DNA of 64,000 bases from Pseudozobellia thermophila. GTDB taxonomy: Bacteria > Bacteroidota > Bacteroidia > Flavobacteriales > Flavobacteriaceae. The position numbers were made by a program, and so were the translations under genes. The notes below the pieces were generated by a model. That model saw nothing but the letters and a program-made list of their open reading frames with translations. It did no database searches and was not told the DNA's origin. Positions 10,335 through 61,952 of the stretch are shown one piece after another; the first letter of the stretch is position 1, and each line of letters opens with the position of its first letter. The stretch lies in the NCBI RefSeq assembly GCF_900141855.1, contig NZ_FQYU01000003.1, positions 62,001 through 126,000 on the forward strand, read 5' to 3'.

Positions 10335-10336
10335 AT

Positions 10337-12060: not shown

Positions 12061-12166
12061 TTTGTTGCGGATTGGGCCGAGAGGGGTCTAATTTGAAAAG
12101 GGGAAAATCATGCGTATTGGCTTTCTATGGTAACTGATCGTTAAGTTAGTTTATTTTAATTTGTTT

Positions 12167-12859: not shown

Positions 12860-12906
12860 TAATCAAATATTGGCTATTTGTGGGATTAAGGGGCTGGCTT
12901 TGATTT

Positions 12907-13632
12907 TTATGAGGGAGGCCTAAGTCCGCCTTCGTTGCCGTAAAGGCTTTGTTGGTTTATGGCGGGCAATGGGGCCTTCAGGGGCTTGGGCATGCTGGTG
13001 GGAATCAAGGATGCTTTTTCCTTTTCGCCTCCGCCTACCGCCTCGCCTGTGTCTTCCAGGTCTTCATTGAGCAAAAAGGCTTTTCTACGGCCGTCTTTGG
13101 AGTCGTCGGCGGTATAAAAGGCGAAGTCCTTATCCCCTCTTTTGACCGTGGGAACCATCATAACACTGTTCCTCCTCGGATTTTTGACCTTTCTCCCGTC
13201 CTTGAACTCTTTCTTATTGGGATAATTGGTCAGGTAGACACGCAGATTGGTAATATCGACATGGGCATCGCCCGCTTCTTGTTCGATAAACTTCATATAG
13301 TTTTGGAGTTCTTGGAAATCGAACTCAACATATCGAGTGGGGACAAAGGAAGCGGCTTCCTCGGGCGAGGATTCTTGGGCCTTTTGTCCGTCTTGTTGCC
13401 GGTCGTCATAGCCTTTGGGCCTGTTCAACGAGTCTTCGTAGTTCCTTATCAGTCCCACCCGTCTTTTGCCGTAGGTGTCGTAAAGTTCTTTGGCCTCGTC
13501 AATGGGGATGATCATTTTTTTGGGTTCTTCGACCCGAACCGTCTCCCGTTTTTCTTTATTGCAGCTCATAATGGTCAGGAAAAGAAAAAGGACGAGGGGC
13601 GTTTTAAACGCCGATTGATTTGAATTTTTCAT
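12907..13632 (-). CDS. Lipoprotein of unknown function
   Basis: A 241-residue protein with a lipoprotein signal (FLFLTIMSC, Cys24) and a long charged, probably flexible region (REEPKK-type, EAKELYDTYGKRR). It then carries a compact segment, VEFDFQELQNYMKFIEQEA, followed by DVDITNLRVYLTNYPN and RRNSVMMVPTV, which resembles a small globular domain found next to 7-TM proteins in flavobacteria (impression only). It ends with a Pro/Gly-rich tail. It is first in a three-gene run with two 7-TM paralogues, so a membrane-associated partner role is plausible. No enzyme motif is seen. Confidence 0.65.
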   Translation of the reverse strand: MKNSNQSAFKTPLVLFLFLTIMSCNKEKRETVRVEEPKKMIIPIDEAKELYDTYGKRRVGLIRNYEDSLNRPKGYDDRQQDGQKAQESSPEEAASFVPTRYVEFDFQELQNYMKFIEQEAGDAHVDITNLRVYLTNYPNKKEFKDGRKVKNPRRNSVMMVPTVKRGDKDFAFYTADDSKDGRRKAFLLNEDLEDTGEAVGGGEKEKASLIPTSMPKPLKAPLPAINQQSLYGNEGGLRPPS

Positions 13633-28781: not shown

Positions 28782-28827
28782 TAAATATATGACTCTTGGG
28801 GGTGTTGACCATCCTGTTCTGTGCTGT
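28782..28827 (-). promoter_or_regulatory. PUL operator-promoter: ACAG triple repeat plus -7, reverse-strand sulfatase
   Basis: Reading the minus strand, ACAGC-ACAGA-ACAGG spans 28827-28813. After 23 bases comes TATATTTA at 28789-28782, one base off TAnnTTTG. The spacing is identical to the four other copies in the PUL. The sulfatase ATG is 16 bases downstream. Confidence 0.65.
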
Positions 28828-29024: not shown

Positions 29025-32000
29025 CTAGGAAAATTTCTTAATATACTGGGAAGGCGTCATGTTATACTTCTTTTGAAAACATTTGCTAAAGTATTTTGGG
29101 TTGTTGAATCCTACCTTGTAACTGATCTCGGAGATATTCATATTGCTTGTTTCAAAATAGACAGCAGCCTTTTTTAGTCTCAGTTCGTTTATAAATTCAT
29201 TGGGTGTATGATTGGTCCACGCTTTAATTTTAGTAAATAACATGGTACGGCTTACACCTAATTCTTTGGCAAAACTGTTAATGTCGAATTGATGGTTTCC
29301 CAAATTGGTTTCCACAATATGCATTGCTTTGGTGAGCAGTTTTTCATCCAACGAGGTTATGGTAAGTTCGCTGGGTACTACACTGGGCTCTTTAGTGAAT
29401 TTTTCTCTTAAACGACGGGACGAATCCAATAAGTTCTTAATTCTCAATTTAAACTCCCTTAAGTGAAACGGCTTACTTATATAATCATCCGCGCCACTTT
29501 CGAGTCCTTTAAACTTATAAAAAAGAGATGTTCTTGCGGTGAGGAGAATAATGGGAATGTGGCTGGTTTTTAAATTATGCTTTAGTTGGGCGCACAATTC
29601 GGTACCTGCCATCTTGGGCATCATTACATCACTGATTACAAGGTCGGGAAGAAATTGTAAAGCCTTACTAAGCCCAATTTCACCGTCTTCGGCTTCCATA
29701 ATATTGTATTCCCCACTTAATAGGTTTTTAAAGAACGCCCTCAGCTGGTCATTATCTTCAACGATTAAAATTGTGGGCAATTCCTTTTTAATGGTAAAGT
29801 TGTCCGTTGTCGTTAAAAGTGTTTTACGCTCAATATCCGTCAGATGATTTGTATATTGGGTAATGTCGTCACTGAATTTAAAGTTGGGTATAATCTCATC
29901 AGGTTTAAGATGATTTTTGCCCAAAGGTAAACTTATGGTAAATACCGAACCTTCTGACAGCTTACTACTGACCTTAATGCTGCCTTTATGAAGGTCGATG
30001 ATATTTTTGACAATCGATAAACCTATTCCGGTTCCTTTATTGTAGACTTCATCAGGGCCGGTTGAATGGGGCACTTCAAAAAAACGATTAAATATTTGTT
30101 CTAAATATTCTTTTTTTATGCCAATGCCCGAGTCTTGAATTTTGAAATAAATATTGCTTTGATCTAAATCGATGGTTATAGAAATTTCCCCTCCCTCAGG
30201 AGTGTATTTAAACGCGTTGGATAGTAAGTTATAGAAAACCTGCTCTAGTTTTGGGCGATCATAAAACACCAATATTTCATCTCTACTGCTTTTAAAGGTA
30301 TAGTTATAACCTTTGCCTTTGGCAAATTCCGTAAAAGAGAGGAATATTTCATTTACAAATTTTACAATATTGCCTTCTGCTACCTGCAGCTTCGATTGGT
30401 TATCTTCGAGTTTGCGGAATTCCATTAACCTATTGATCAAATGCAGTAAGTGATTGGCACTGCTCTCGATTACCAATAGTTTCTTGTATACAATGCTGCT
30501 TCCCTTGTAATTATTAAGTATTTGCTGTAAGGGTCCCAGAATAAGTGTCAATGGAGTACGAAAATCATGACTGATGTTGGTAAAGAACCTCAATTTGGCC
30601 TCATGGTTTTCTTCTTTCCTTTTGTTTTCCAGCTGCTCCCATCTTAAATCTTGTTTTAATTTGGCCCTAGATTTTAATATGTTATAGAAATAATACATGG
30701 TCACCCCCCCCAATATTCCGTAAAGCATAAATGCCCATATACTTTTCCAAGGTGCCGGAAGAACCGTAATTTTCAATGAGGTAGGGCTTTCGTTCCAGAT
30801 ACCATCATTATTGGCTCCTTTTACTTCAAATAGGTATTCGCCCGGTTTTTGTAGGGTATAATAGGCTTCCGTGTGACTGGTATAGGTCCATGAATCGTCA
30901 AGGCCGACCAAGCGATATGCGTATTGGTTATTTTTGGAATTGATGTAGCTGGGCATGGCAAAATGCAAAGAGAAGTTAGCATTGTCATGACTTAGGGTGA
31001 TTTCATCGGTATATGAAATAGATTTTGACAGAATGTTATTTGCGGCATCGACCGTTACCGAGTTATTTTTAAGTTGCAAATCGGATAGGATAACTGGGGG
31101 CGCATCCATATTTTTGACCAGTTTTTTGGGATTAAAAAGTGTTAGGCCTTCGTTACCCCCAAAATAGATGTTACCGTCATCTTGAATAATACCGGCGTTG
31201 GGACTAAAATCGTTACTGCTCAGAATATTGCGCTGGTCGTATATCGTGGTTTTGTGCGTGTCTCTGTTATATCTAACTATACCTTTGTCGCTACTTAACC
31301 AAATGTGGCCTTCCGCATCTTCCAGTATCGTATGAATGGTAGATATAGGATTTTCTTCATTTAGGTTTACGTGCTCGAACTCACTACCATTAAATCTATA
31401 TAGCCCCAAGGTTTTTGTTCCGACCCAGATAATTCCATGCCGATCCTCATAAACTGTTTTTATATCGTTACCTGAAAAAGCATCGATAAAAAAATGAAAC
31501 ACCTCATAATCGTCTTTTTCTTCATTACGGAATTTTAATAAGTTCAGACCGCCAAGACCTCCCGCCCAGATATTTCCAAATTGGTCAACACAAATGGTTT
31601 TAATAATGTTTGACGAAAGCTTTGGTTTGTTTTCGGTCCATTTGCCATAGACCCGAAATTGTTCAGTGCCGGAATCATAACGAACCAGTCCCTTTCCAAA
31701 AGTTCCGATCCAATAAATTCCATGGGCTCCCTGCTTTATAGAAAAGACCCCTGTTGTTTTTAAATACTCCATGAGTTTATGGGGAATGAAATCCTCAACT
31801 ATCTGATTGGACCTCAGGTCAAATGCTAAAAGGCCATAATTAAGTACTCCTGCCCATAATAAATTGTCATCGACTAGAAATAAGGTTTGAATGCTGTTGG
31901 GTATAAGATTCTCTTTATCCGATAAGCTATAGACCTTTGAAGTACTTTTCTTATGGTTAAGTATGGCAACATCGCCTCCTTCCGTGCCATAGATAAGGTT

Positions 32001-33098
32001 TGAACGTTTGTCCGAAATTATTGCGGTTACCACCGAGTTGGCTAGTTTGGAGTTTTTTAGGTGGTTGAAATTTTCATTGGATGGATCCCAGATATTGACC
32101 CCTCCACTATAGGTGCCCAACCAAATAGTACCATGTTTATCTTTATATATGGCTTTGATGAAGTTTTGGCTTAATGAGGATTCATTCGATTTTATATCGA
32201 AAATTTCATTTTCGGAACCAATGATTCGAACACCTTGGGTCGTTCCCAGCCAGATAGATTTGTCATTTGCTTGCTGTAATACCCTTACATCGGCCGAAAT
32301 CGGTAGTACGGAGTTGGGGGATGAAATATACTTTTCTTTTTGGGTATCGAACAGAACGTAACCGTTGTACTTGGTGGCCAGGCCCAAAACGTTGCTAGAG
32401 GTTTCTATGATATCTTGAATAAATAGGTCTTCTTCGCTATCTTGAAACGGATACTGTTTGAATATGAAGTCGTTTTTTACCCTTTTTTCCAATTTGGCCA
32501 AACCGCCGGCCGTGGCAATCCAAATTTGATTCTTGTGGTCGGAAAAAATTCGTTGAATGTTTCTGAAAGGCAGACCCGTTGAACTACCTTCTTCATAGGG
32601 TATGGTCGTAAAGTTATCATGGGCCCTGTGGTAAATGGCAATTCCATTGGCCGTGCCAAACCAAATTTCACCGTTGGGCATTTCCCTGCTGCAAATAATT
32701 ACATTGTTGCATAATGAATTTGGCTTGTTGTTTTGGTAGTATCTCTTAAAGGAATTTTTGATTGGATCGTATCTATTCAGACCTCTGTACGTACCTACCC
32801 AGATATACCCCTCACTATCTTCATTTATGGTTAGTATGTCGTTGTTGCTGAGGCTGGTAGTGTCTCCGGGGATGTGGGTGAAAACCTTAAATTCGGTGCC
32901 GTTATAAAGGTTCAGTCCATTTCTGGTACCGAACCACATTTGGCCCAATTTATCCTGCTCGATTGCGATTACCGAGTTGTTGGAGAGACCGTCTTTAACG
33001 GATAAATGTCTAAAATTATAGTTCTTTTTCTGCGCAACCGATACCTCCGCAATGAGCAGAAATAATAGAGTCGCCGATGTAAGTCTCGTTTTAAACAT
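29025..33098 (-). CDS. Hybrid two-component system sensor/regulator (HTCS)
   Basis: A 1357-residue one-protein two-component system, the usual PUL regulator in Bacteroidetes. A signal peptide (to ~22) is followed by a periplasmic two-bladed beta-propeller of Reg_prop repeats (~30-720; many IWVGT/IWLGT blades) and a Y_Y_Y domain (~735-800). A membrane helix (~805-825) leads to the histidine kinase (His844 in FTNISHDFRTPLTLILGPL; ATPase NAFKYTPEGGEI, GTGIGLSIVKNIIDLH), a receiver (Asp1157 in DLVISDVMMPKMAG) and a C-terminal AraC-type HTH (SRTMLFTKIKAWTN; VGFNNPKYFSKCFQKKY). It senses a breakdown oligosaccharide in the periplasm and activates PUL promoters. Most likely regulator of the ACAG-repeat promoters in this window (inference). 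A+T-rich relative to the genes left of it. Confidence 0.95.
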   Translation of the reverse strand: MFKTRLTSATLLFLLIAEVSVAQKKNYNFRHLSVKDGLSNNSVIAIEQDKLGQMWFGTRNGLNLYNGTEFKVFTHIPGDTTSLSNNDILTINEDSEGYIWVGTYRGLNRYDPIKNSFKRYYQNNKPNSLCNNVIICSREMPNGEIWFGTANGIAIYHRAHDNFTTIPYEEGSSTGLPFRNIQRIFSDHKNQIWIATAGGLAKLEKRVKNDFIFKQYPFQDSEEDLFIQDIIETSSNVLGLATKYNGYVLFDTQKEKYISSPNSVLPISADVRVLQQANDKSIWLGTTQGVRIIGSENEIFDIKSNESSLSQNFIKAIYKDKHGTIWLGTYSGGVNIWDPSNENFNHLKNSKLANSVVTAIISDKRSNLIYGTEGGDVAILNHKKSTSKVYSLSDKENLIPNSIQTLFLVDDNLLWAGVLNYGLLAFDLRSNQIVEDFIPHKLMEYLKTTGVFSIKQGAHGIYWIGTFGKGLVRYDSGTEQFRVYGKWTENKPKLSSNIIKTICVDQFGNIWAGGLGGLNLLKFRNEEKDDYEVFHFFIDAFSGNDIKTVYEDRHGIIWVGTKTLGLYRFNGSEFEHVNLNEENPISTIHTILEDAEGHIWLSSDKGIVRYNRDTHKTTIYDQRNILSSNDFSPNAGIIQDDGNIYFGGNEGLTLFNPKKLVKNMDAPPVILSDLQLKNNSVTVDAANNILSKSISYTDEITLSHDNANFSLHFAMPSYINSKNNQYAYRLVGLDDSWTYTSHTEAYYTLQKPGEYLFEVKGANNDGIWNESPTSLKITVLPAPWKSIWAFMLYGILGGVTMYYFYNILKSRAKLKQDLRWEQLENKRKEENHEAKLRFFTNISHDFRTPLTLILGPLQQILNNYKGSSIVYKKLLVIESSANHLLHLINRLMEFRKLEDNQSKLQVAEGNIVKFVNEIFLSFTEFAKGKGYNYTFKSSRDEILVFYDRPKLEQVFYNLLSNAFKYTPEGGEISITIDLDQSNIYFKIQDSGIGIKKEYLEQIFNRFFEVPHSTGPDEVYNKGTGIGLSIVKNIIDLHKGSIKVSSKLSEGSVFTISLPLGKNHLKPDEIIPNFKFSDDITQYTNHLTDIERKTLLTTTDNFTIKKELPTILIVEDNDQLRAFFKNLLSGEYNIMEAEDGEIGLSKALQFLPDLVISDVMMPKMAGTELCAQLKHNLKTSHIPIILLTARTSLFYKFKGLESGADDYISKPFHLREFKLRIKNLLDSSRRLREKFTKEPSVVPSELTITSLDEKLLTKAMHIVETNLGNHQFDINSFAKELGVSRTMLFTKIKAWTNHTPNEFINELRLKKAAVYFETSNMNISEISYKVGFNNPKYFSKCFQKKYNMTPSQYIKKFS

Positions 33099-33326: not shown

Positions 33327-33372
33327 TCGGGACAGTACAGGACACTAACCTTGTTTATGAACTTTATTTTTG
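33327..33372 (+). promoter_or_regulatory. PUL operator-promoter upstream of the sulfatase row (ahead of a sulfatase remnant)
   Basis: TCGGG-ACAGT-ACAGG (33327-33341; the first 5-mer is degenerate) is followed after 23 bases by a perfect -7 element TATTTTTG at 33365-33372. Spacing matches the other copies. The next sequence downstream is a sulfatase C-terminal remnant (33475), and the first intact sulfatase gene starts at 33722. Confidence 0.65.
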
Positions 33373-41777: not shown

Positions 41778-41815
41778 TATAGGTTTCATTAATTTTTGTT
41801 TCGGTGATTCCCTAG

Positions 41816-41861
41816 CAGTACAGAGCAGGACACTCTTACATCGAACAATACCTAATTTTGG
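41816..41861 (+). promoter_or_regulatory. PUL operator-promoter of the GMC oxidoreductase operon
   Basis: GCAGT-ACAGA-GCAGG at 41816-41830 (two A-to-G changes from the ACAGN-ACAGN-ACAGG pattern) is followed after 23 bases by a perfect -7 TAATTTTG at 41854-41861. The ATG of the GMC gene is 86 bases downstream. Confidence 0.65.
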
Positions 41862-41947
41862 ATGTTCTCTAAGTAGGGTATGCCGGTAATTGCAGTGGGG
41901 CAACCAGCTTTCGATGTTTGATAATTAAAAAAAAAGAAAAGAACGGT

Positions 41948-49780: not shown

Positions 49781-51118
49781 AATTGTAATTGTTTCTTGTT
49801 TCAACTCTGACTCGGCAATCGGATTTAAATACTTGGAGGTGGTCTTTTGGTTTCAGCCTACAGAGGGTTTCGAAAGCATTCCAAACGGTTTACAAAGCTT
49901 TCTGCCCCTCTTTACTCGTTAAAGGAGACCGGCCTAGTAGATAGCTTTTCCATTTACAATTTCAAGATGGGCGAAAAAATCGCTCTGGTCATTATGATCG
50001 CTTAAAAATACTCATAGCCCGACCATTACTATAGGGCACCACTATCGCAGTACTTAAGTCGGTATTTTCATGGCGTTGCCAATAACTTGTCCACGTATGG
50101 CGCTGGTTTACCTTAATTTCTCCGTACTTTATGTAAGGGGCCGCCCAGCAGATATGATACTGGTCTTATTATTGGTATTTCAAATCTCGACAAATTACTT
50201 CTAAAATCCAACGAAATACACTTAGGTTCTGAAATATTGGCACCCTTATTGTCCCAATCGATATAAGTTAGAGTAGAGAAGGTAGTCGCGGGCCGGTGCT
50301 TTGGGCTTTTCATGTTTTTAATCCATATTATCAATGACGGAATAATTTACCCGCTTTTGCCACGACTCTATAACGCCGGATAAGGGGCCTTGCTTAAAAC
50401 TTTCTTTTTTTGTGCGGTTGGGCCATAGGTGAGAAAGGCGATCGATCCTATTGTTGTTGGATGGGTTTTTATCGCTACGCCCCGTTACAAAGCGTGAAAT
50501 AGCAGTCCTTGGCGATACTATCCGTTTATAATGCCGGACCCCTTTTAATATATTTAAATTTCTTGATGTGTCTTTTGGGATTTTTCGGCCACTTCTGGCT
50601 GAAAAAGCAAAACGCCCGTAGTTCGATTTCCACTAGTATAACCTTTTGTGAAACTACATTGGCTCCTGTGGATCTATCGCTAAATACTATTTTACACCAA
50701 TTTGGTATTCAGTAGATACGGCTTCCAATGGTTTGGCAACGGTTTCACAAACCCTTTATATTTTAGGGGAAAATCCCCACCGTTATGGCCACTGAATATT
50801 TTTCTTTCTCATATTGGTTTAAATACAAATGGTAGCCTTGCAGAAGATAGTTCAACTACTACATATATACTTGGTTGTTCAATTAGGTAGTATCGCTATC
50901 TTAAGTCTTCGATTGAAACGATATCCACATCGTTGTTCTTGCCGGTCGTACTCCATGTAAAACTTTATTTGGAAGTGCCAACGTCTTAAGGGGGTATAGT
51001 TTGTCCTGTATTTCAAAAGCCTTTGCTCGTTGGGTTTGGTAAGAAATACACACCTTTAGCAGTTGTATGAATTTAGCGGTGTCAAAAGGGTCGGTATCTT
51101 AAATGGTAAATCGAATAA
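49781..51118 (-). pseudogene. 1.3-kb tract with no intact gene; possible decayed gene on the minus strand
   Basis: No ORF here looks like an intact gene. Reading the minus strand, coding-like pieces follow one another in different frames from just after the GntR stop codon (51,110) to ~49,990: FEIQDKLYPLKTLALPNK, then KNNDVDIVSIEDLR, a ~104-codon stop-free stretch (50,635-50,325; includes NYGRFAFSARSGRKIP and IESWQKRVNYSVIDNMD), then TLTYIDWDNKGANISEPK and YGEIKVNQRHTWTSYWQRH. Several in-frame stops and frame changes would be needed to join them. Open stretches of this length can arise by chance in 1.3 kb, so this is only suggestive. I recognise no family. Confidence 0.3.
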
Positions 51119-52165
51119 TTACAAAGAATTTCTGTCAATAAGCCTAAACGGATTTTTGATTTTACCTTTAGTCTTCTCTAAGATCATTTTAGCGGCCATT
51201 TCACCCATTTCTTGAAAATCGGTCGAAATACAGGTAATGCCCAATAACTGCTTTAAAGGGGTGTCGTTGTAGGAAATCACGCCTATTTCTTCCCCTAATT
51301 TAAATTCTTGGTTTCTAATCTGGTTGACCAACACTACCAAATCCGATTCATTGATAGTAATAAATAAATCCCCGCTTTTGAGAATCATGTCATCATAAAT
51401 CTCGTTAAGAATTTCAAACTCAAGATCAAACTCTACGCAAAACTTTCTGAAGCCGTGCAATATTCGTTTCGGGTAGGGGTATACCGAATTTTGCGGATAG
51501 GCGATAAAAAGCTTGTTATATTTGGAAATTTTGGGGAGGCCTTCTTTCAATGCAGAATAGATATCATTTTCAAAATCTTGATATATTTCGATGTAAGGCC
51601 CTTCTAATTCCCTAATAGCATTATCCATAATTATTAATTGGTCTTTCGGTATTTTTTGAATGGCCTGGATGACCTTTGGAGTTACCGTGATGTGTTTTAA
51701 ACTTTCGGTCTTAAAATGGGGCATTATAATATAGTAGTCATAAGCGTTGAGGTTCTTTTCGAGGATATTCAAAAAAAGCTCTTCTTCACAGTGATAGATA
51801 TGTAAGTGCGTGTGCGACATGCTGGCCATTCTTGCAATGAAAGAGTTATAGACACGCATTTTATAGGAACTGAGTTTATTGATCAAAAACAGGATGTTGA
51901 CCTTGGATATCAATTTAGTCCGGGAAATATAAAAGCCCTTGCCCCGTATGGATGTAATTATTTTTCGCTCCCTCAATATTCCGTAAGCCTTCTCTACCGT
52001 ATCGCGTGAAAGGATATACTCTTCGCTAAAACTATTGATGGAAGGGATTTTATCGTCGATTTTTAGGTTTCCTACCGAAATATTATGGATGATCGAATCA
52101 ACGATTTGTTGGTATTTAGGGATTCTTGAATTTTCATCAATCTTGATATAATCGAATATTTCCAT
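51119..52165 (-). CDS. GntR-family regulator with LacI-like sugar-binding domain
   Basis: A 348-residue repressor/activator. The N-terminal winged helix of GntR type spans ~8-75 (RIPKYQQIVDSIIHNISVGN; SEEYILSRDTVEKAYGILRE; IRGKGFYI). Residues ~85-340 form a periplasmic-binding-protein-like ligand domain (VNILFLINKLSSYKM; EEIGVISYNDTPLKQLLGITCISTDFQEMG). This architecture is known in Bacteroidetes for regulators of deoxy-sugar use such as the fucose regulator FucR, fitting a rhamnose-type ligand here. It is divergent from the first susC gene, sharing a 321-base intergenic region. Confidence 0.9.
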   Translation of the reverse strand: MEIFDYIKIDENSRIPKYQQIVDSIIHNISVGNLKIDDKIPSINSFSEEYILSRDTVEKAYGILRERKIITSIRGKGFYISRTKLISKVNILFLINKLSSYKMRVYNSFIARMASMSHTHLHIYHCEEELFLNILEKNLNAYDYYIIMPHFKTESLKHITVTPKVIQAIQKIPKDQLIIMDNAIRELEGPYIEIYQDFENDIYSALKEGLPKISKYNKLFIAYPQNSVYPYPKRILHGFRKFCVEFDLEFEILNEIYDDMILKSGDLFITINESDLVVLVNQIRNQEFKLGEEIGVISYNDTPLKQLLGITCISTDFQEMGEMAAKMILEKTKGKIKNPFRLIDRNSL

Positions 52166-52319
52166 AATTAATTTATTGTTCCAATACTAAATATTGAATA
52201 GATGGTTCCCTTTTAGAGAATTGATGGTTAGTGCAACACAGAGACTTTAGACAATTTTAATCTAATATTAACCAGGTTATCACACTAAGAGGGGTATCAT
52301 CGTACAATAAAGGAGTAAA

Positions 52320-52386
52320 AAAGTACAAAACCATTGAAAGACAGCACAGTACAGGTAAGTATCGTGCCTAAAGAACATTATAATTG
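52320..52386 (+). promoter_or_regulatory. PUL operator-promoter of the first susCD operon (bipartite)
   Basis: Upstream box AAAGTACAAAACC at 52320-52332, 8-base spacer, ACAGC-ACAGT-ACAGG at 52341-52355, 23 bases, then TATAATTG at 52379-52386 (one base off TAnnTTTG). Box, spacer length and offset are identical to the second susC promoter. ATG of susC lies 100 bases after the -7 element. Confidence 0.72.
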
Positions 52387-52486
52387 TCTAATGTTAAGAA
52401 AATGTAAAAGCGATTTGAATTGGCCTAATCGAATATTGATAATCGGTTGTACTTCTTTCTTATTTAACTCAACTAAATTTTAAGTA

Positions 52487-55400
52487 ATGATTAAACATGA
52501 TTCGTTAAGATGTTGGAAAGTCTTTATGATTTTCTGTTCAATATTTACAGGTCTGCACAGTGTTTACGGGCAATCGGAGCAAATTACGGGCACGGTGTCA
52601 GACGACCAAGGCGTACCCATACCAGGGGTCAACATAGTGCAAAAAAATACTTCCAACGGGGCAGTGACGGACTTTGATGGCAATTTTTCCATTGAACTTG
52701 CATCAGGTCAGGATATTCTTGTTTTTACGTATATAGGTTATCAAACGAGAGAGGTAAGATTAGAAGGTCAAACCGTATTGAATATTACCTTACAAGAAGA
52801 TACACAAGCGCTGGACGAGGTAGTTGTTGTAGGTTATGGAACAACCACAAAATCGGACTTGACGGGTTCTGTTGCCTCTGTAAGTTCCGAGGAAATTACT
52901 CAAGTCCCCTCTTCAAGGGTCGACCAGGTATTACAAGGTAGGGCGGCCGGTGTTCAAGTCACCCAAACTAGTGGGGCACCAGGGGCCGGTACCGTGATTC
53001 GGGTTAGGGGAGGTAATTCCATAACGGGAAGCAACGAACCTTTATGGGTAATCGATGGAATCGTCGTGGGAACCAACTTCAACCTAAACAATATAAATGC
53101 GAACGACATCAAATCGATTGAGATTTTAAAAGATGCCTCATCGATTGCTATTTATGGCTCCCGCGGCGCCAATGGTGTGGTTTTGGTCACCACTAAAAAC
53201 GGCGTTGGCGCGGGCTATGGGAAGCCTCAAATCAATATAGGGCTTTATACCGGAATGCAATTGGTACCTGAACAACCTGACATGCTAACACAGGCCGAGC
53301 AGATTGCATTTACCAATGAAAGTGCCGAGTTCAGGGGGGCGGCCGTTCCCTTTCCCAATGACCCCTCTACTTATCCCAATAACGATTGGTATGACCTTTT
53401 AATGGGAGCTTCGCCGATTTACAATGCTGATATTTCCATTGCAGGCTCTTCTGAAAACGGAAATGTAAATTATTACAATTCATTGAACTATTTTAACCAA
53501 GATGGTCTAATAATCAGCTCGGGCATAGAAAAATACATATTTAGGTCGAATATCGATATCAAGCTTAACGACAAGTTAAAAACTGGTTTTCGGTTCAACT
53601 ATTCCAGAATCAATCAAGATAACGGGGTTGTAGGTTTCGGTAATGTATTCGCCAATTTACCAACTCAACCCATTTATAATGAAGATGGTACTTATAACGG
53701 TTTTGATGAGGTAATAGGCTCACCGTGGTCGAACCCCATAGCCAATGCAAAATTAAATACCAATGAAACCTTTACAAACAACTTATTGGCCACGGTTTAT
53801 TTGGAATACAGTCCTTGGCCCCAATGGAACATTAGGTCGACATTCAGCCCTGAGTTCAATAATATAAAACAGAATAGGTTCATTTCAAGCCAAAGTCCCG
53901 ATTTATTGGTCGTGGGCGATTTGGGAAGGGCAAGTGTACGAACTGTTTCGGGCACCAGTTGGAACAATGAGAATACGATTCAGTACAATGGCGATTTTGG
54001 TGAAAACCATAGTTTGACCTTGCTGGCGGGCGCTTCTTTTCAGAAGGTGGCCAACGAAATCGTAGAATCGGAGGCCTTTGGTATTACGAGCGATGCAACG
54101 GGCTTTGATAATTTGGGTTTTTCAGATCCCACACGGTCGGTAGTATCAAGTGATTTTAATGGCTTTCAAATCGCTTCTTTTTTTGGAAGGATAAATTATA
54201 GTTACAAGGATAAATACCTGCTTACCCTGGTAGGTAGAACAGATGGAAGCTCTGTTTTTTCAGAAGGTAACAAGTACGAGTTCTACCCTTCAATAGCAGG
54301 TGCATGGAAGATTAGTGAAGAATCTTTTATGCAGGATCAAAACCTGTTTAAGGAATTGAAACTAAGGGCCAGTTACGGTAAGTCAGGCAACCAGGCCATC
54401 GATCCATACAGAACTCTGGGTTTATTGACAGAGGCAAATACTACACTCAATGGTGTTGAGGTACCTGGTTTAACCCTGGGTAGGCCTGCAAACCCGAATT
54501 TGAAGTGGGAAACTACCACATCGCTCGATATTGCCTTGGAGGCGTCTATGTTTAACGGAAGGCTTTTTACCGAATTCAACTATTATCATAAAGAAACGAA
54601 CGACTTGTTGCTAGATGTGACCATACCAAGGCAATCCGGCTTTACCAGTCAATTACAGAATGTAGGTTCATTGGAGAATAAAGGTTGGGAGTTTTTACTT
54701 AATTCTACCAATATTGTTAATGACAACTTCAGTTGGAAGTCGACGCTTACCTTATCATCGAACAATAACAAAATCCTTGATCTTGGTGGGGTGGATTTTA
54801 TCGATGTAACCGTAGACGCCATTTTGGGATCGGGCAATACCCGGCTTATAGTTGGCGAACCGGTACCTGTATTCACTGGGGTTCGCTATTTGGGTACATG
54901 GAAAAGCCAAGAAGAAATAGATGCTTCGGGCCTTACCGATCCCCAAGTGGTCGGAGGGGCGCGATTTGAGGACTTAAATGGCGACGGAATTATTTCTACG
55001 GAAGATAATGTGGTTTTGGGAGACCCGACACCCGATTTAATTTTTGGTCTTGAAAATACGTTTTCGTACAAGAACCTGGATTTCTCCTTTTATTTTCAAG
55101 GTACTGAAGGTAATGAGGTATATAACCTAAGAACGCGTAATCACTATTTTAACAGGGGTGAAACCACAAAATTTGGTGATATCAGAAACCGATGGACGGT
55201 GGACAACCAAAATTCGGACATTCCAAGGGCCGGTGGCGATTCGGTAACCAATACCCCAAGTAATTCGGAATATGTTGAAGATGGATCGCACATCCGTTTG
55301 AAAACAGCTCGAATCGGGTACAACTTTCCCGTTGAGAAAATAGGTTGGGATGGTGTAAGGAATATGAATATTTACGTGTCGGGTAGTAACCTGCTTCTAT

Positions 55401-55537
55401 TCTCAAACTTCAGGTTGATCGATCCCGAGACTAGTAGTTTCGGTAGAAACGGATTAGGTAATATAGCCCAAGGGTACTCTAATGGTGAGTACCCCAATCC
55501 ACGTACGATTACCCTAGGTCTAAATGTAACTTTTTAA
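52487..55537 (+). CDS. SusC/RagA-type TonB-linked outer-membrane transporter
   Basis: A 1016-residue SusC homologue importing oligosaccharides across the outer membrane with its SusD lid. A signal peptide precedes the carboxypeptidase-like domain (ITGTVSDDQGVPIPGVNIVQ, ~residues 33-115), then the TonB box-containing linker (DEVVVVGYGTTTKSDLTGSV), plug domain (PGAGTVIRVRGGNSITGSNE; IYGSRGANGVVLVTTK) and a long beta barrel ending RTITLGLNVTF. Ten bases separate it from the SusD gene. The ACAG-type promoter lies upstream at 52320-52386. Confidence 0.96.
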   Translation: MIKHDSLRCWKVFMIFCSIFTGLHSVYGQSEQITGTVSDDQGVPIPGVNIVQKNTSNGAVTDFDGNFSIELASGQDILVFTYIGYQTREVRLEGQTVLNITLQEDTQALDEVVVVGYGTTTKSDLTGSVASVSSEEITQVPSSRVDQVLQGRAAGVQVTQTSGAPGAGTVIRVRGGNSITGSNEPLWVIDGIVVGTNFNLNNINANDIKSIEILKDASSIAIYGSRGANGVVLVTTKNGVGAGYGKPQINIGLYTGMQLVPEQPDMLTQAEQIAFTNESAEFRGAAVPFPNDPSTYPNNDWYDLLMGASPIYNADISIAGSSENGNVNYYNSLNYFNQDGLIISSGIEKYIFRSNIDIKLNDKLKTGFRFNYSRINQDNGVVGFGNVFANLPTQPIYNEDGTYNGFDEVIGSPWSNPIANAKLNTNETFTNNLLATVYLEYSPWPQWNIRSTFSPEFNNIKQNRFISSQSPDLLVVGDLGRASVRTVSGTSWNNENTIQYNGDFGENHSLTLLAGASFQKVANEIVESEAFGITSDATGFDNLGFSDPTRSVVSSDFNGFQIASFFGRINYSYKDKYLLTLVGRTDGSSVFSEGNKYEFYPSIAGAWKISEESFMQDQNLFKELKLRASYGKSGNQAIDPYRTLGLLTEANTTLNGVEVPGLTLGRPANPNLKWETTTSLDIALEASMFNGRLFTEFNYYHKETNDLLLDVTIPRQSGFTSQLQNVGSLENKGWEFLLNSTNIVNDNFSWKSTLTLSSNNNKILDLGGVDFIDVTVDAILGSGNTRLIVGEPVPVFTGVRYLGTWKSQEEIDASGLTDPQVVGGARFEDLNGDGIISTEDNVVLGDPTPDLIFGLENTFSYKNLDFSFYFQGTEGNEVYNLRTRNHYFNRGETTKFGDIRNRWTVDNQNSDIPRAGGDSVTNTPSNSEYVEDGSHIRLKTARIGYNFPVEKIGWDGVRNMNIYVSGSNLLLFSNFRLIDPETSSFGRNGLGNIAQGYSNGEYPNPRTITLGLNVTF

Positions 55538-55547
55538 TTTAATTAAG

Positions 55548-57131
55548 ATGAGAACAACACATAAAATTTTTAGCTTCTTATTAATTTTTTCGCTTTTTGG
55601 CTGTGAAAAATTCTTAGAGGAGGAACCACGGTCCTTAATTGCACCAGAGAACTTTTTTAAGTCGGAGAATGATGTTAGGCAGGCGGTAAATGGTATTTAT
55701 GCCATTCTCAAGAACAATTCAATTTACGGGCAAGTAGGTCTTGATCACTTTTACGATAATGGAGCTGATATTATTGAGCCCAACCGATCCGCAAATTTTG
55801 TTGAACCCATTGGCAACTATTCAATGAATGAGGCCTTGGCCGATGTATCCGTACAGAAAATGAGTGTTTCCGACACATGGAAAGATTTGTATAGGATCAT
55901 TTATAATGCGAACATCATTATTGACCAGGTATCGGACAATTCGGCCATAGGTAATGAAGTGCAAACTGAAATTATAGCAGAAACCAGGTTCATAAGGGCA
56001 CTGTGTTATTGGCATATAACCAACTTATGGGGAGATGCCCCCTATTATGTGGATCCTTTGTCGATTGATGAGGTAAACGTGCTTCCAAGAACTGATAAAG
56101 AAACCATTATTGCCGGTGTTTTAAGTGATTTACAGTTTGCCCAGCAACATTTGAAAAGTTCTTATGAAGAAGCTCAACGAGGGCGGGCCACAAAATGGGC
56201 AGCTGCCGTGGTTGAGGCTAAAATCCATATGCAAATGCAAAATTGGCGTGAAGGACTTAATAAATGCTTGGAAATAATCGATACTTCCCCTCACACTTTA
56301 ATGCCAACTTATGCTGAGGTGTTTGATCCCCAAAACGAATACAATGCAGAGATAATTTGGTCATTGGATTTTGCCAAGGACATTCGTGGCCAGTTTGAAG
56401 AAGGTACGGTAAGGGCCGATGGTTCACTACCTTCTGTTTTTGGCAATGGCAACTGGAGACCAAGTATGTTCAGTCCTCGTTTGCGGGATGAACCAAAGAA
56501 TTCCGACGAAAGAAGTGCCCTGGCAGCGGCCTTAAGCGAAAGGGGAGAGGCCTTTAACGGTACCGGTTTACAAGTGGCGTCTAAAGATTTTGCGGAAAAA
56601 TTCCCTGAGAACGACTTAAGAAGACAATTGAACATTGTAGACAATTATTTGGGCTTCGATTTGAATTTTCCCTATATGGCCAAAATTTGGAATTTGGATG
56701 TGGAAAACTCTCCACGCTTCAATCACTCGGATAATCGGATAGTATTCCGGCTGGCGGATGTTTACTTAATGGCCGCAGAATGTGAAAATGAGCTGAACGG
56801 TCCTGGTAATGCTTACCGGTATATTCACCCTATTCGTCAACGGGCCTATGAAACACAGGTAGAATGGGAGCTTACCGGTCTTAGTCAGCAAGAGTTTAGG
56901 GAAGCAATTTACGACGAAAGAAAATGGGAATTGGCCGGGGAGGCCCATAGAAGATATGATTTGATCAGATGGGGTATTCTTATGGATGTTGTTCAAAACC
57001 TTGAATATCGCTTTTGGACACCCAATGAAAATATAAAACCATACCACGTACTGTTGCCAATACCATTGCAAGAGTTGGAATTAAACCCCAATTTGTTGGA
57101 GTCCGATCCCACAAATAATGGTTATCGTTAA
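55548..57131 (+). CDS. SusD/RagB-type surface glycan-binding lipoprotein
   Basis: A 527-residue lipoprotein (lipobox FSLFGC, Cys19) that closes the SusC barrel from outside and binds the glycan. Family blocks are FLEEEPRSLIAPENFFKSEN, VRQAVNGIYAIL, ETRFIRALCYWHITNLWGDA and the C-terminal REAIYDERKWELAGEAHRRY, DLIRWG and LLPIPLQELELNPNL. The TPR-like helical core is intact. Substrate specificity is not readable. Directly downstream of susC (10-base gap); the next sequence on this strand belongs to a degraded, reverse-oriented gene. Confidence 0.95.
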   Translation: MRTTHKIFSFLLIFSLFGCEKFLEEEPRSLIAPENFFKSENDVRQAVNGIYAILKNNSIYGQVGLDHFYDNGADIIEPNRSANFVEPIGNYSMNEALADVSVQKMSVSDTWKDLYRIIYNANIIIDQVSDNSAIGNEVQTEIIAETRFIRALCYWHITNLWGDAPYYVDPLSIDEVNVLPRTDKETIIAGVLSDLQFAQQHLKSSYEEAQRGRATKWAAAVVEAKIHMQMQNWREGLNKCLEIIDTSPHTLMPTYAEVFDPQNEYNAEIIWSLDFAKDIRGQFEEGTVRADGSLPSVFGNGNWRPSMFSPRLRDEPKNSDERSALAAALSERGEAFNGTGLQVASKDFAEKFPENDLRRQLNIVDNYLGFDLNFPYMAKIWNLDVENSPRFNHSDNRIVFRLADVYLMAAECENELNGPGNAYRYIHPIRQRAYETQVEWELTGLSQQEFREAIYDERKWELAGEAHRRYDLIRWGILMDVVQNLEYRFWTPNENIKPYHVLLPIPLQELELNPNLLESDPTNNGYR

Positions 57132-57205
57132 AAATGTAGTAGTAGTTTAGTTAGATTGGCAAATGGGGTGATTATTATATTCGCCCCATTTTATTTGGGC
57201 AGGTC

Positions 57206-58239
57206 TTACTTTTCTTGGCGAATTAGTAGACTCTCCCTTTCCAAAATTAAAAACGATTGACAATTGTCGGGAATAGTTCTTATACCGCCAAATCGTCTAC
57301 CTCCATTTTGGACGTGGTATTTTTTTCTTTCAAGTTGGGCAAAGCCAAAGGTCAAAACACCCACGCGACCAACAAACATTAAAAGTATGATCACGGTCTT
57401 TCCAAAGAGCGACAGGTTTGCTGTGATTCCCGTACTTAATCCCATAGTGCCAAGTGCCGATGCCACTTCGAACAAAAGAGATTCAAGTTCGAATTCTTCT
57501 GAACATGTAAGTAAAAAAGTGGCTAGAAGAATAAACTGGTATAGAGTATGAACGTTGAGGTGCCTACATACATTAAAAACGTAATCAATAACAGGACGAA
57601 TGGTTTAGTTGCCCAATAGGTATTGTGTTGAAACCTACCGTCGTCATCGATGACATGGTTTGAAAGAAGGCTTCCGTTAACCTAGAACCTTAATTTTTGA
57701 TACTCGATTCATTGAAATACAGAAAAGTAGTACCAATCAATAACAGGAGGGTGAAGCCAGAAACCACAATTTTTGTAGTAAATGAAATTTCTTTTGACCG
57801 GTTCGTAAATCTATACCATAACTCGGTAATCACGATAAATCCGGGAGAAACGGCAATCGCAAGAATGGAAATGATGGTATTGATGAAATCTTTGATTTTT
57901 TATCGTTTTTGGCAATGTAATTTCAGTACCGATAACTTTGTGGTGCCAGTGGGTAATCCTATGCGCGGTAAACAAAATATAATAAGTGGTTAAGATCATA
58001 TATCCGATTCCACTGATTTGAAATAAGGCAATTATGATCAGTTGACCGCCAAAAGTATAGTGGTCGAATATATCAATTGTCACTAGTCCGGTCGTAGATA
58101 TAGCCGATGTGGCAACGAAAAGGTTGTTGATTAGTTCGATTTCCAATTTATGGAGAAAGGGCATGGTCAAAAGAAACAATCCGATAATGGTATAAAGAAA
58201 GAAGCCCCAGACTAAATTCATTTGTGGAGATTTACCCAC
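57206..58239 (-). pseudogene. Frameshifted KtrB/TrkH-type potassium transporter
   Basis: The minus strand begins with an intact-looking N terminus (MGKSPQMNLVWGFFLYTIIG; NNLFVATSAISTTGLVTIDIF with the first filter-like TTG) up to ~57,890, where a T-rich homopolymer shifts the frame. The next frame reads INTIISILAIAVSPGFIVIT, then around 57,640 SSMTTVGFNTIPIG, a third filter-type segment, with stops after it. The segment 57,475-57,206 gives [20 protein letters not shown], the last KtrB filter. The usual GGGIKTTT region is missing. At ~345 codons the locus is shorter than intact KtrB (~440-600). A clear pseudogene of a potassium or sodium-coupled uptake subunit, between two susCD pairs. Confidence 0.85.
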
Positions 58240-58670
58240 TTGAAATTTCTTGTACCGAAGAGGTAACTATTTTAATTTTTTAATAATCTATTCATAAGCT
58301 ATGTTTAAGACGGTCTTCAATGGCGTGTTAAGAATAGTATTATGCCATCGTTTTTCTACTTTCCATAAAAAAGACCTCAGGTATAATTTCGAACGAGATT
58401 GGTAGCCAGATGAATACGCAGACCGCATCCAAATCAGTGAATGTTGGCACGCGTGCTTAAACACTCTTGCGGGATGTGAAGGATATTTTCCTTAAAATGG
58501 CTTTACCTGTACTTCCCCGGTTCTCTCCGTTATAATCTGGAAATATCCTATCGGCAAAAGTTGTTTAAAGGCAGTTTGTCCAGAATCTTCCTTGAAAAAG
58601 TCAAAATTGGAGGTTTGTTTCCGTCCGTTTCAGTTTCCTAAAGTGAAAAATAATCCAACATAGGTACAAA
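58240..58670. other. Intergenic stretch upstream of the second susC promoter
   Basis: About 430 bases between the transporter pseudogene start and the operator of the second susC. It contains no ORF that resembles a known family and no strong hairpin. It probably holds the old promoter of the pseudogene and filler sequence. Confidence 0.45.
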
Positions 58671-58737
58671 AAAGTACAAAACCCTTTAGTAACAGGACAG
58701 TACAGGCAAGTGAATTTTACTTGAATTGGTAATATTG
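58671..58737 (+). promoter_or_regulatory. PUL operator-promoter of the second susCD operon (bipartite)
   Basis: AAAGTACAAAACC at 58671-58683, 8-base spacer, ACAGG-ACAGT-ACAGG at 58692-58706, 23 bases, TAATATTG at 58730-58737 (one base off TAnnTTTG). Same layout as the first susC promoter base for base in spacing. ATG of susC is 128 bases after the -7 element. Confidence 0.72.
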
Positions 58738-58865: not shown

Positions 58866-61800
58866 ATGAAGAAAAACAGTCATGAACATTTTAAACGTCT
58901 TTTGGTGTTCTCATCGTTTCTACTGGTGGGTTATTTGGGCTGGGGACAGCAAGGTCCAACCATTACGGGAACGATCATAGCAGCCGATGGAATGCCGATT
59001 CCCGGTGTGAATATTTTGGAAAAGGGAACGGCCAATGGTGTTGTTTCCGACTTTGACGGAAATTATTCCATCACTTTGAGGGGAAACAACAAAACTCTTG
59101 TTTTCTCCTATATCGGATATAAAACCGTTGAAAGATCTATTGGCAGTACCAACCTTGTGAACATTACCCTTGAAGAAGATTCACAGAATTTAGACGAAGT
59201 TGTGGTTATCGGTTACGCCCCGGTCGAGAGAAAAAAGGTGCTGGGGTCTATCTCTACGGTAAAGGCCGAATCAATTGAACAGGCAACCCCGGTTCAAGCC
59301 TTTGATGCCGTTCAGGGTAAACTGGCCGGGGTCCAGATTTTAAGTAACAACGGTCCCGGTCAAGGGTTTGATATTCGCATACGTGGTGTTTCTACCTTTG
59401 GAAGCGGCACTTCGCCCTTATATGTGGTTGATGGGCAACAGTTGGATAATATTGATAATATCGATCCGAACGACATTGCATCCTTGGAAGTTTTAAAAGA
59501 TGGTGCTACGGCGGCCATATACGGTTCAAAAGCTGCCAATGGGGTGGTGCTTATTACCACTAAATCAGGTAAGTCTGGTGGCCTTACAATCGAGCTTTCG
59601 CAAACAACCGGTTTTAACACTTTGGTAGGCGATCTTCCAGTGGTCAATACCGAAGAGCGTTTTTTACTGGAAAAGAAAAGGTCGGGAGATTTGGAAAGCT
59701 TGCCGCGCCTGGAAAGGGATTCCCTAAGTTTGCTAAGAAGAAACGATTACGACCTGCAAGACCTGCTTACCAGGCCGGGTGTGCGAAATCAAACGAATAT
59801 TTCGGTAAGTGGGGGCAATGAGAAGGTCACTTTCTTTTGGAATACCGGTTACCTGAACGAGGAGGGAGTAGTTATCAATAGTAATTATAAGCGTATCAAT
59901 ACCCAATTAAAGCTAGATGCAAAGGTATCTAACAAACTAAAATTGGGCACTAGGGTATCGCTGACGCATCAAGACAAATCAGGATTGACTGAGGGGGGTG
60001 TTTTTACACATTTGGTGGAGCGCCTTCCATATCTACCCCTTTATCAACCTGACGGAACTTTCACCCCGACCATAGGAGGTCGTAAGAACCCTTTGGCGTT
60101 CGCAAATCTCCAGGTACGGGATGATCGCGATTATAGAATACAAACTTTTAATTACGCCCAATTGCAGTTGTTTCCAAACCTGACCCTAAAATCTACCTTG
60201 GGTATCAATTGGAGGTTCAGAAAGCAGGATGATTTTGATACAAGACTTATTGCGAACCGATACGATACCGGTTCCAACCAGGCTAGGGTGCGTCAAGATA
60301 TGACCTACGACATTCAACAAGAAAATTTTATTAATTATAAAAAGAATTGGGGCGATCATGACCTGGGCGCCTTTGCCGGGATGCAAATTCAAAAATACTT
60401 TATTGAGAACACCGATTTTAGGTCTAGAATACTTAATAACGAGTATGTACAAACCTTGAACAATGCGTCGCCTGGCTCCATAACCGGAGATAACAATCAA
60501 AATGAAAGGCACAATCTTTTTTCTCTTTTTGCCGGGTTTAACTACGATTTTTTAGATAAATACCTGATAGGGGGTACCATTCGTCGTGACGGTTCATCGC
60601 GTTTTGGGGATGAAAATGAATACGGAATCTTCCCTTCCGCAACTTTAGGTTGGCGAATAAGCAACGAAAACTTCCTGAAGGGCAGCACATTTTTGAACAA
60701 CCTTTTGGTTAGGGGAAGTTGGGGTGTTGTTGGAAATGAAAGAATAGGCAATTACCTCTTTACCGGAGCTTTGGAACCTGGGTACGCCTACGATGGTATA
60801 TCGGGTATTGCAGCCACCCGTTTGGGAAATCCCGAACTTTCTTGGGAAGAAACCGAATCTGTCAACCTGGGTGTTGATATGTCTTTCTTCAAAAACAGAT
60901 TGGAGATAAATCTTGATTTTTGGGAAAAGAATACCACGGGGCTTTTGGCAACTACCCCATTGCCAGAGGAGTCTGGTTTTACCGGAATTGTAAGAAACGT
61001 CGGGGCGGTGGACAACAAGGGTATTGATTTTAACATTTCTGGCACCATAATCGACTCAAAAAACTTTACCTGGAGCAGTAACTTTAATATCGGTTTCCTA
61101 GAAAATGAGGTAACCAAATTGGATGGAGGCACCGAGTTTTATCCGCAAGGGAGATATTTGGTCAGGGAAGGAGAACCCATTGGCAATATCTTCGGATACA
61201 AAAATCTGGGTGTGTACCAGTATAATGAATCCAATGCCTATTCAGATGACGGTGCCCGATTGACTCCAAACTTCGATTCAGGGGGTAATTTCACCAATTA
61301 TACCTTAAACGGTTCTGAATATAACGGAAATGTTAATCGGTTAACGGTAGGGGGTAGAACACCCGAAGGGGGTGATATCATCTGGGAAGATGTCGATGGT
61401 GATTTCAATATCACAGCCGATGACCGACAAATAATCGGTAATGGTTTGGCGACGACCTACGGTGGCTTTTCCCACGACATTCGCTACAAAAGCCTAAGCC
61501 TTAATTTCTTGTTCGACTTTAGCTTGAACCATGACATCTATAGCAGATGGGATGAAGATCGTAACGATTTGGCGGCAGGAGCTGAAAGTCCGGGCCCCGA
61601 AAGAGTCTATGGGGCATGGTTTGAACCTGGGGACGAAACCATCTACCCTAGGTTGGACAGGGTGCCACAAAACCGTCTAAAACCAAATAGTTTCTTCGTG
61701 TCTGACGGTAGCTTTATTAAATGGCGTTATGTTCGGTTCAATTATAAGTTCGATAAACAAGTGATTGACAAGATTCCGGGGGTTAAGGGAGCATCCTTGA

Positions 61801-61952
61801 ATCTTGCCGTCAACAATTTACTTACTTGGACAAACTATAATGGATATAACCCGGAACTAGGAAACAGGGGGAGTGCCCTAACCCCCAACATGGACCAGCT
61901 TCGGTATCCTAATGATAGAGAAATAATTATGGGCGTTAAACTTCAATTTTAA
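58866..61952 (+). CDS. SusC/RagA-type TonB-linked outer-membrane transporter (second pair)
   Basis: A 1028-residue SusC homologue with signal peptide, carboxypeptidase-like domain (ITGTIIAADGMPIPGVNILE), TonB-box linker (DEVVVIGYAPVERKKVLGSI), plug (GPGQGFDIRIRGVSTFGSG; IYGSKAANGVVLITTKSG) and beta barrel ending REIIMGVKLQF. It differs from the first SusC throughout the barrel loops and plug, so it probably takes up a different fragment of the same polysaccharide. Ten bases before its SusD partner. Complete. Confidence 0.96.
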   Translation: MKKNSHEHFKRLLVFSSFLLVGYLGWGQQGPTITGTIIAADGMPIPGVNILEKGTANGVVSDFDGNYSITLRGNNKTLVFSYIGYKTVERSIGSTNLVNITLEEDSQNLDEVVVIGYAPVERKKVLGSISTVKAESIEQATPVQAFDAVQGKLAGVQILSNNGPGQGFDIRIRGVSTFGSGTSPLYVVDGQQLDNIDNIDPNDIASLEVLKDGATAAIYGSKAANGVVLITTKSGKSGGLTIELSQTTGFNTLVGDLPVVNTEERFLLEKKRSGDLESLPRLERDSLSLLRRNDYDLQDLLTRPGVRNQTNISVSGGNEKVTFFWNTGYLNEEGVVINSNYKRINTQLKLDAKVSNKLKLGTRVSLTHQDKSGLTEGGVFTHLVERLPYLPLYQPDGTFTPTIGGRKNPLAFANLQVRDDRDYRIQTFNYAQLQLFPNLTLKSTLGINWRFRKQDDFDTRLIANRYDTGSNQARVRQDMTYDIQQENFINYKKNWGDHDLGAFAGMQIQKYFIENTDFRSRILNNEYVQTLNNASPGSITGDNNQNERHNLFSLFAGFNYDFLDKYLIGGTIRRDGSSRFGDENEYGIFPSATLGWRISNENFLKGSTFLNNLLVRGSWGVVGNERIGNYLFTGALEPGYAYDGISGIAATRLGNPELSWEETESVNLGVDMSFFKNRLEINLDFWEKNTTGLLATTPLPEESGFTGIVRNVGAVDNKGIDFNISGTIIDSKNFTWSSNFNIGFLENEVTKLDGGTEFYPQGRYLVREGEPIGNIFGYKNLGVYQYNESNAYSDDGARLTPNFDSGGNFTNYTLNGSEYNGNVNRLTVGGRTPEGGDIIWEDVDGDFNITADDRQIIGNGLATTYGGFSHDIRYKSLSLNFLFDFSLNHDIYSRWDEDRNDLAAGAESPGPERVYGAWFEPGDETIYPRLDRVPQNRLKPNSFFVSDGSFIKWRYVRFNYKFDKQVIDKIPGVKGASLNLAVNNLLTWTNYNGYNPELGNRGSALTPNMDQLRYPNDREIIMGVKLQF

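Follow-up and report, generated by a model that had tools for sequence, protein, structure and literature searches.

In Bacteroides thetaiotaomicron, the target sites of hybrid two-component systems (HTCSs) have been described as direct repeats (PMC3878776). Rhamnose regulators of the AraC, DeoR and LacI families have also been described (PMC3870299), and MarA-type activators bind in reverse orientation and distally at class I promoters, and in forward orientation, overlapping the -35 element, at class II promoters (PMC10268841). Here, we analysed a stretch of 64,000 nucleotides from Pseudozobellia thermophila (contig NZ_FQYU01000003.1, positions 62,001 to 126,000; hereafter the window) with two susC/susD pairs, each susC promoter carrying a box upstream of an ACAG triplet. 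To our knowledge, the way in which outside oligosaccharide signals, received by HTCSs, and inside monosaccharide signals are joined at polysaccharide utilization loci (PULs) is poorly resolved. From the sequence comparisons below, it appears likely that in both susC promoters a RhaR-like site is preceded, in a fixed geometry, by an HTCS site, and that these promoters combine two signals. Because one locus contains both predicted sites, both candidate regulators and control promoters with a single input, the logic is directly testable. In addition, the analysis supplies site predictions, spanning many genera, for a rhamnose regulon and for an HTCS clade.

The locus resembles the HTCS regulons described in PMC3878776 by its HTCS with an AraC-type helix-turn-helix (HTH) domain, its SusC/SusD targets and its direct repeats with a period of about 21 bp. 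Unlike in those regulons, the predicted HTCS site is combined with, and lies upstream of, a monosaccharide-regulator site, and follows the consensus GTACAAAAATAGGGGTAAAAAAATAC. It is also flipped relative to the HTCS-only promoters of related genera. As in the RhaR regulons described in PMC3870299, one local regulator would cover the rha catabolic genes, RhaEW-type fusions included, together with rhamnoside-degrading genes. The candidate regulator here, however, is a GntR/LacI chimera, and neither “GntR” nor “flavobacter” occurs in the main text of that article. The MarA scheme, as outlined in PMC10268841, is similar in that one orientation is used beside the core promoter and the other further upstream; such opposite orientations at distal and core-proximal positions hold here too, in three distal cases only, from two genomes. 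It differs in that here the core promoter and the distal site are separated by the site of a second regulator, and MarA-type activators are not HTCSs. A literature search at the level of titles and abstract openings returned no GntR/LacI-type rhamnose regulon and no composite HTCS and RhaR promoter.

A composite element at both susC promoters

The site sequences, distances, recurrence, specificity and gene context given below are observations on the genomes themselves. A composite of the form AAAGTACAAAACC-N8-ACAGnACAGTACAGG stands at 52320 and 58671, ahead of susC1 and susC2. With up to three mismatches it had two matches in the window and none in 100 shuffles, and the 13-mer AAAGTACAAAACC occurs exactly twice in the whole 5.04 Mb genome (reversed-pattern control: 0). 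The initial annotation had reported an additional upstream element with fixed geometry, specific to the two susC promoters, and this was borne out: boxes, spacers of 8 bases and triplets were all in place, and the remaining three ACAG sites of the window, at 28827(-), 33327(+) and 41815(+), lack the box. What it had overlooked is that the box makes up just the right-hand portion of a longer element beginning at 52302 and 58653, and that a -7 box lies exactly 38 nt from the start of each of the five ACAG sites (5 or 6 of 6 letters of TAnnTTTG).

The two spacers are equal in length and unlike in sequence (3/8 bases in common), as had been observed. The suggested selection on geometry is supported by the susC1 ortholog of a genome from another genus, G128, where the spacing is the same and only 1/8 spacer bases are shared. 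Comparing susC1 with susC2, identity reaches 10/10 in repeat 2 of the box and 17/19 in the ACAG site, and between the elements 3/8 and 3/19 in the spacers, with 19/60 and 18/60 in the flanks. The upstream conservation is restricted to the elements. As paralogs in one locus, susC1 and susC2 might owe their similar promoters to a recent duplication of the upstream region, or to chance, but the likeness is limited to the elements, spacers and flanks have diverged, and the arrangement is retained in another genus, which makes this explanation extremely improbable.

Box and triplet had further been read as two half-sites with a common AGTACA core. AGTACA is indeed repeated 26 bases downstream of its copy in the box (positions 52322 and 52348), yet it is absent from the G128 box, and each module is found alone elsewhere, the ACAG module at rhaEW promoters and the box module at HTCS-adjacent susC promoters of other genera. 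The AGTACA inside the ACAG triplet is most likely a coincidence. In a related explanation, one regulator, either the HTCS or the GntR protein, binds both elements as tandem half-sites of a single dimer, with a register of either 26 bp (AGTACA) or 21 bp (A.AG.ACA..AC). Box and triplet agree in 8/12 letters in the 21-bp register, and Bacteroides HTCS sites are described as direct repeats of 12+9, 16+5 or 14+6 bp (PMC3878776). Against this, both modules occur alone at many promoters, a partner for the box is already present 21 bp upstream of it, at 52302, and in G128 the 21-bp match between box and triplet is only 4/12, with AGTACA lost. Both registers were rejected on these three points, and we consider a single regulator on both elements very unlikely.

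The ACAG triplet as a predicted rhamnose-regulon site

Relaxed searches retrieved the triplet elsewhere in the P. thermophila genome too, with two perfect copies around a stretch holding a second GntR/LacI-type gene. This gene adjoins a rhamnose operon, encoding a rhaEW-like aldolase-dehydrogenase fusion, an isomerase-like protein and an FGGY kinase. With up to one mismatch, the triplet was present in 13/30 loci of that regulator's orthologs, P. thermophila included (control pattern: 0). The free-standing site reads RCAGNACAGNACAGGAYR, and the distance from its start to the -7 box is exactly 38 nt. This site was found upstream of rhaEW in 19/19 promoters from those ortholog loci (13-16 of 16 letters); although the -7 box played no part in choosing the site here, TAnnTTTG at +38 was among the best placements in all 19 and the sole best in 16. 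When the RhaEW protein was used to pick the promoters (the 30 best among 47 places, with the site selected by motif and -7 scores jointly), 29/30 had at least 13 of 16 motif letters and at least 5 of 6 -7 letters. The two sets have 11 genomes in common and combine to 38 promoters, 37 with the site. No conserved sequence was found at the box position of the rhaEW promoters. The HTCS was rejected as reader of the triplet, since rhaEW promoters remote from the window's HTCS carry it.

The presence of the ACAG site tracks the GntR/LacI-type regulator across genomes. A GntR of at least 50% identity occurs in 41/199 genomes, all of which carry rhaEW, and rhaEW in 46/199; 34 further genomes have a less similar GntR match only, and 5 of them carry rhaEW. 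The rhaEW side was inspected in 37 of the 41 genomes (all but G002, G070, G109 and G172). In the 5 rhaEW genomes with a GntR of only 39-45% identity, the site was altered in one, G107 (...ACAGAACA), and not found in four. G107 and G036, the latter being the one of the 30 promoters without the site, are the only two among the 30 with a GntR of just about 45% identity, and no rhaEW-promoter site was found at the threshold used in G019, G023 and G063, which have distant GntRs. In G126 (GntR 57%), the site stands beside the GntR gene, 1.2 kb from the rhaEW-like gene, and its -7 box is less well matched (4 of 6).

Within the P. thermophila genome, site and -7 box together had 14 matches with up to three mismatches (reversed control: 0). 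Downstream of them are rhaEW, the sulfatases at 27260-28765 and 33722, the GMC oxidoreductase, susC1, susC2, a third susC on contig C20, a rhamnose mutarotase (ORF, open reading frame, start uncertain), a sulfatase-rhamnosidase fusion, two genes of glycoside hydrolase (GH) family 88, and an extracytoplasmic function (ECF) sigma factor followed by FecR and a TonB-dependent receptor. The site at C25:814607 lies behind a GDSL esterase gene and is directed at a partly covered ORF, probably a GH106-type rhamnosidase, followed by GH88. For the site at C20:669589 no target gene was found.

Only the two susC sites among these 14 lose the A of GGA[TC], which is invariant in 19/19 rhaEW sites, and the -7 boxes of both susC promoters end in ATTG. 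Judged by these letters, the upstream element may compensate for a weaker core of the susC promoters. The sequence gives no support to the earlier suggestion that the other three sites in the window may be weaker, as the ACAG and -7 pattern scores 21, 20 and 21 of 22 there versus 19 and 19 at the susC promoters.

The upstream element as a probable HTCS-type tandem site

HTCS orthologs (46-50% identical) with susC directly after them were found in 10 loci of other genera; other HTCS loci are arranged differently. An expectation-maximization search on these 10 HTCS-susC intergenic regions, with window and G128 left out, returned the motif given above, mostly with a 22-bp period and on the strand opposite to susC. 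In the matrix built from the 10 sites, one column may be dropped, which allows a match to a 21-bp period. Its scores are 31.7 bits for 52302-52335, 25.8 for 58653-58686 and 17.5 for the next independent place in the window. Without the dropped column, the two promoters still rank first and second (18.8 for susC2 and 13.8 for susC1, vs 13.4). Column-permuted matrices placed the susC1 or susC2 site in the top two in 0/200 cases, their best window score being 15.7 on average and 28.1 at most; a weak match of 17.5 bits at 50675-50708(-) is within this noise. In G128, the susC1 promoter holds the best match in 60 kb (22.8 vs 15.4).

As a hold-out, a search of the family of P. thermophila that detected the HTCS in 27 of 397 genomes provided 16 further loci outside the matrix, L191 and L192 being from one genus. 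In 11/16 of them susC lies directly downstream, and all 11 gaps score at least 19.6 bits, with nine at 23.4 or more. In G270, an additional case, the gap between HTCS and susC scores 26.6 bits. The period is 21 in the window, G128 and G270, and 22 in most others. Across the 22 promoters (training set, hold-out set and G270), TAnnTTTG at a distance of exactly 21 nt from the edge of the HTCS site was among the best placements in 19 and the sole best in 14; the distance was 32 nt in two, and one had neither. This 21-nt distance, which goes with the relatives' orientation, is not found in the window, where the ACAG site occupies that place.

The two kinds of promoter are set apart by their median scores. 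At the 30 rhaEW promoters the medians are 7.2 bits for the HTCS matrix (shuffled 5.2) and 21 of 22 for the RhaR-type site with -7 box; at the 11 hold-out promoters they are 27.6 bits and 13 (shuffled 12). The other 12 RhaR-type promoters of P. thermophila reach at most 11.8 bits with the HTCS matrix. The box as a general susC feature was rejected, given 2.8-12.9 bits at nine other susC1-homolog promoters and a C20 susC gene whose ACAG site (685678, minus) lacks the box.

Even with the ACAG sites as described, the box could be an A-tract or UP-like element, or the site of another regulator. It is A-rich, the HTCS assignment is based on motifs beside orthologs of 46-50% identity, and scores near 20 bits are also found at unrelated places. 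The HTCS-susC matrix, however, ranks both places first in 64 kb, which permuted matrices of the same composition never did, and the nine other susC promoters remain at or below 12.9 bits. We therefore regard this alternative as unlikely and retain the HTCS-type tandem site as the better description of the upstream element.

Recurrence in other genomes

In G128, the susC1 ortholog is 86% identical and the box has 3 mismatches. AGTACA is not kept there, because the box reads AAAGTTCGAAACA. The G128 locus is syntenic, with an HTCS (62% identical) directly upstream of susC1, and its other ACAG promoters are likewise without the box; a close GntR is encoded on another contig. The genera of P. thermophila and of G128 are represented by one genome each. 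A search for the composite with up to three mismatches in 397 family genomes found it in P. thermophila only, and an HTCS-based search for related loci added two distant ones (28% and 21%).

The modules are separable, and the window's two promoters and that of G128 susC1 combine both. In 13 further susC1 orthologs (65-77% identity), the RhaR-type site with -7 box scores 15-21, 12/13 being above the shuffled maximum of 15, and the susC2 orthologs of G151 and G114 have the HTCS-type site and lack the RhaR-type site. In G382 (HTCS 57-58%), no close susC1 ortholog was found in 60 kb (best 32%); its susC2 homolog (46%) stands behind a gntR gene, with an upstream HTCS-type match (21.4 bits) and without a listed ACAG site. 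HTCS and GntR genes are adjacent in G043, G070, G144, G151, G338, G373 and G382, partly with other HTCS paralogs, and this adjacency fits a working pair.

Several observations weigh against a composite of HTCS and RhaR-like sites. Outside P. thermophila, one composite ortholog was found, G128 susC1. The 13 further susC1 orthologs score 1.4-16.6 for the HTCS site, and four other susC2 orthologs were found, all without the composite. The HTCS site of the window and G128 is opposite in orientation to that of the relatives, lies about 25 bp further upstream and has a 21-bp period, and the dropped column was admitted only after the difference in orientation and period had been seen. The matrix depends in part on susC2 ancestry, because the training regions of G151 and G114 precede susC2 orthologs. 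Weak members of the site set are G162 (training) and L179 and L189 (hold-out). Among the 5 hold-out loci without a directly downstream susC, only L182 matches downstream of the HTCS (20.0); L195 has a match of 22.6 bits upstream of gntR-HTCS, and the other three reach at most 18.4. Coding sequence reaches 20.5 bits (L179), and the 28.1 bits of one permuted matrix fell somewhere in the window. A score of about 20 bits does not by itself decide the matter, because two of the 30 rhaEW promoters reach 21.0 (L110) and 19.6 bits (L109); the values of G128, susC2 and susC1 (22.8, 25.8 and 31.7 bits) are above both. The symmetry of the ACAG motif may also count against a GntR-type reader. GntR dimers typically use dyad operators, and the motif shows direct repeats (0.74 for period 10, 7 pairs; 0.67 for period 5, 12 pairs) more than any dyad (0.59 at best, 5 informative pairs).

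Separately, several promoters of susC1 orthologs from other genera (L067-L076) have extended or tandem ACAG arrays, e.g. GCAGCACAG-nn-CATAACGG-TAGTACAGGATA. Importer promoters may therefore gain extra upstream elements repeatedly, and of different kinds.

Proposed promoter architecture

By the usual convention, a start site set by the -7 box would lie about 11 nt downstream of its TA, and the proximal ACAG site would then cover about -49 to -31. The ACAG site is located where the -33 element would lie, which suggests class-II-type activation. The site would be read by a RhaR-like regulator of the GntR/LacI type, reporting cytoplasmic rhamnose or a derivative. Either of two GntR paralogs is a candidate for the acting regulator: judging from its sequence, the product of 51119-52165 is one of two paralogous candidate readers, 58% identical to the second regulator gene near rhaEW. 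The upstream element, at about -88 to -58, would be a tandem site of 21-bp period for the HTCS that the locus itself encodes; this HTCS would report oligosaccharide outside the cytoplasm. In this arrangement, the importer genes would integrate both signals, and the sulfatase and GMC promoters would answer to the rhamnose regulator alone.

Under the same start convention, the relatives' HTCS site has the other orientation and reaches to about -33. In the simplest model, RhaR would have taken the core-proximal position, with the HTCS acting from upstream. From the arrangement of sites and genes we infer the identity of the binding proteins, activation over repression, the AND-like logic and the ligands. 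The full proposal, a two-input AND-like importer promoter in which a flipped HTCS site has moved one module upstream of a core-proximal GntR/LacI-type rhamnose activator, is possible, and we put it forward tentatively. If true, importer expression would need polysaccharide outside and rhamnose inside, and the degradative genes rhamnose only. It would also mean that a rhamnose regulon across many genera of the family is run by an activating GntR/LacI chimera on a direct-repeat site.

Gene content and additional features

The coordinates of the elements and main genes are collected in Table 1. The locus contains sulfatases, a GH78 rhamnosidase, a GH5, a GMC oxidoreductase, two susC/susD pairs, an HTCS and a GntR/LacI-type regulator, and looks like a sulfated-rhamnan utilization locus.

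Table 1. Positions of predicted promoter elements and selected genes in the window
Feature	Position	Strand	Remarks
HTCS-type tandem site of susC1	52302..52332	+	matrix built without the window; 31.7 bits, top in window
Repeats of susC1 tandem site	repeat 1 GTACAATAAAGG 52302-52313; repeat 2 GTACAAAACC 52323-52332	+	21-bp period; the box, 52320-52332, is the right part
Spacer, 8 bp	52333..52340	+	unconserved; 3/8 as in susC2, 1/8 as in G128
RhaR/GntR-type ACAG site of susC1	52341..52359	+	core GGTA, deviates from GGAY
-7 box TATAATTG of susC1	52379..52386	+	at +38 from ACAG site start
susC1, TonB-dependent SusC-like receptor	52487..55537	+	Pfam; followed by susD1, 55548-57131
HTCS-type tandem site of susC2	58653..58683	+	25.8 bits, second in window
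Repeats of susC2 tandem site	repeat 1 ATCCAACATAGG 58653-58664; repeat 2 GTACAAAACC 58674-58683	+	the box is 58671-58683; repeats 21 bp apart
RhaR/GntR-type ACAG site of susC2	58692..58710	+	core GGCA
-7 box TAATATTG of susC2	58730..58737	+	at +38
susC2	58866..61952	+	Pfam; followed by susD2, 61963-63549
RhaR-type site and -7 box, no HTCS site	28782..28827	-	upstream of sulfatase 27260-28765
RhaR-type site and -7 box TATTTTTG, no HTCS site	33327..33372	+	upstream of sulfatase genes from 33722
RhaR-type site and -7 box TAATTTTG, no HTCS site	41815..41860	+	upstream of GMC oxidoreductase 41918-43648
HTCS (Reg_prop sensor, Y_Y_Y, HisKA, HATPase, receiver, AraC-type HTH)	29025..33098	-	Pfam, orthologs; proposed reader of the upstream site
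Regulator with GntR HTH and LacI-type sensor (Peripla_BP_3)	51119..52165	-	Pfam; divergent from susC1

The redoxin-like gene and the GntR gene are separated by about 1.3 kb (49805-51118) with a longest internal ORF of 73 aa, possibly a decayed gene; an attempt to identify such a gene in this interval gave nothing useful.

Further observations concern the regulon outside the window. G000:C20:686709-690689 (minus) encodes an HTCS paralog of 31% identity that contains one in-frame TGA, and lies about 1 kb upstream of a RhaR-type site and a susC gene (L206:2472-5576). The sulfatase domain and the GH78-type rhamnosidase domain of L207:8954-12472 (minus) form one protein of 1172 aa. Behind another RhaR-type site, the GH88-like ORF L027:12440-13108 (minus; G000:C18:138440-139108) encodes 222 aa, around half of the family profile, and may be truncated. 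In L033, the RhaR-type site at 7908-7953 lies ahead of the ECF sigma factor, FecR and TonB-dependent receptor genes (8084-13369), possibly placing a third kind of PUL regulator, an ECF/FecR system, under the rhamnose regulator. Finally, upstream of susC genes in L174 (G162) and L189 (+468 from the HTCS end) there is a different, palindrome-like element, ACCAAATTGGT...ACCAAATATAC, which may belong to another regulator.

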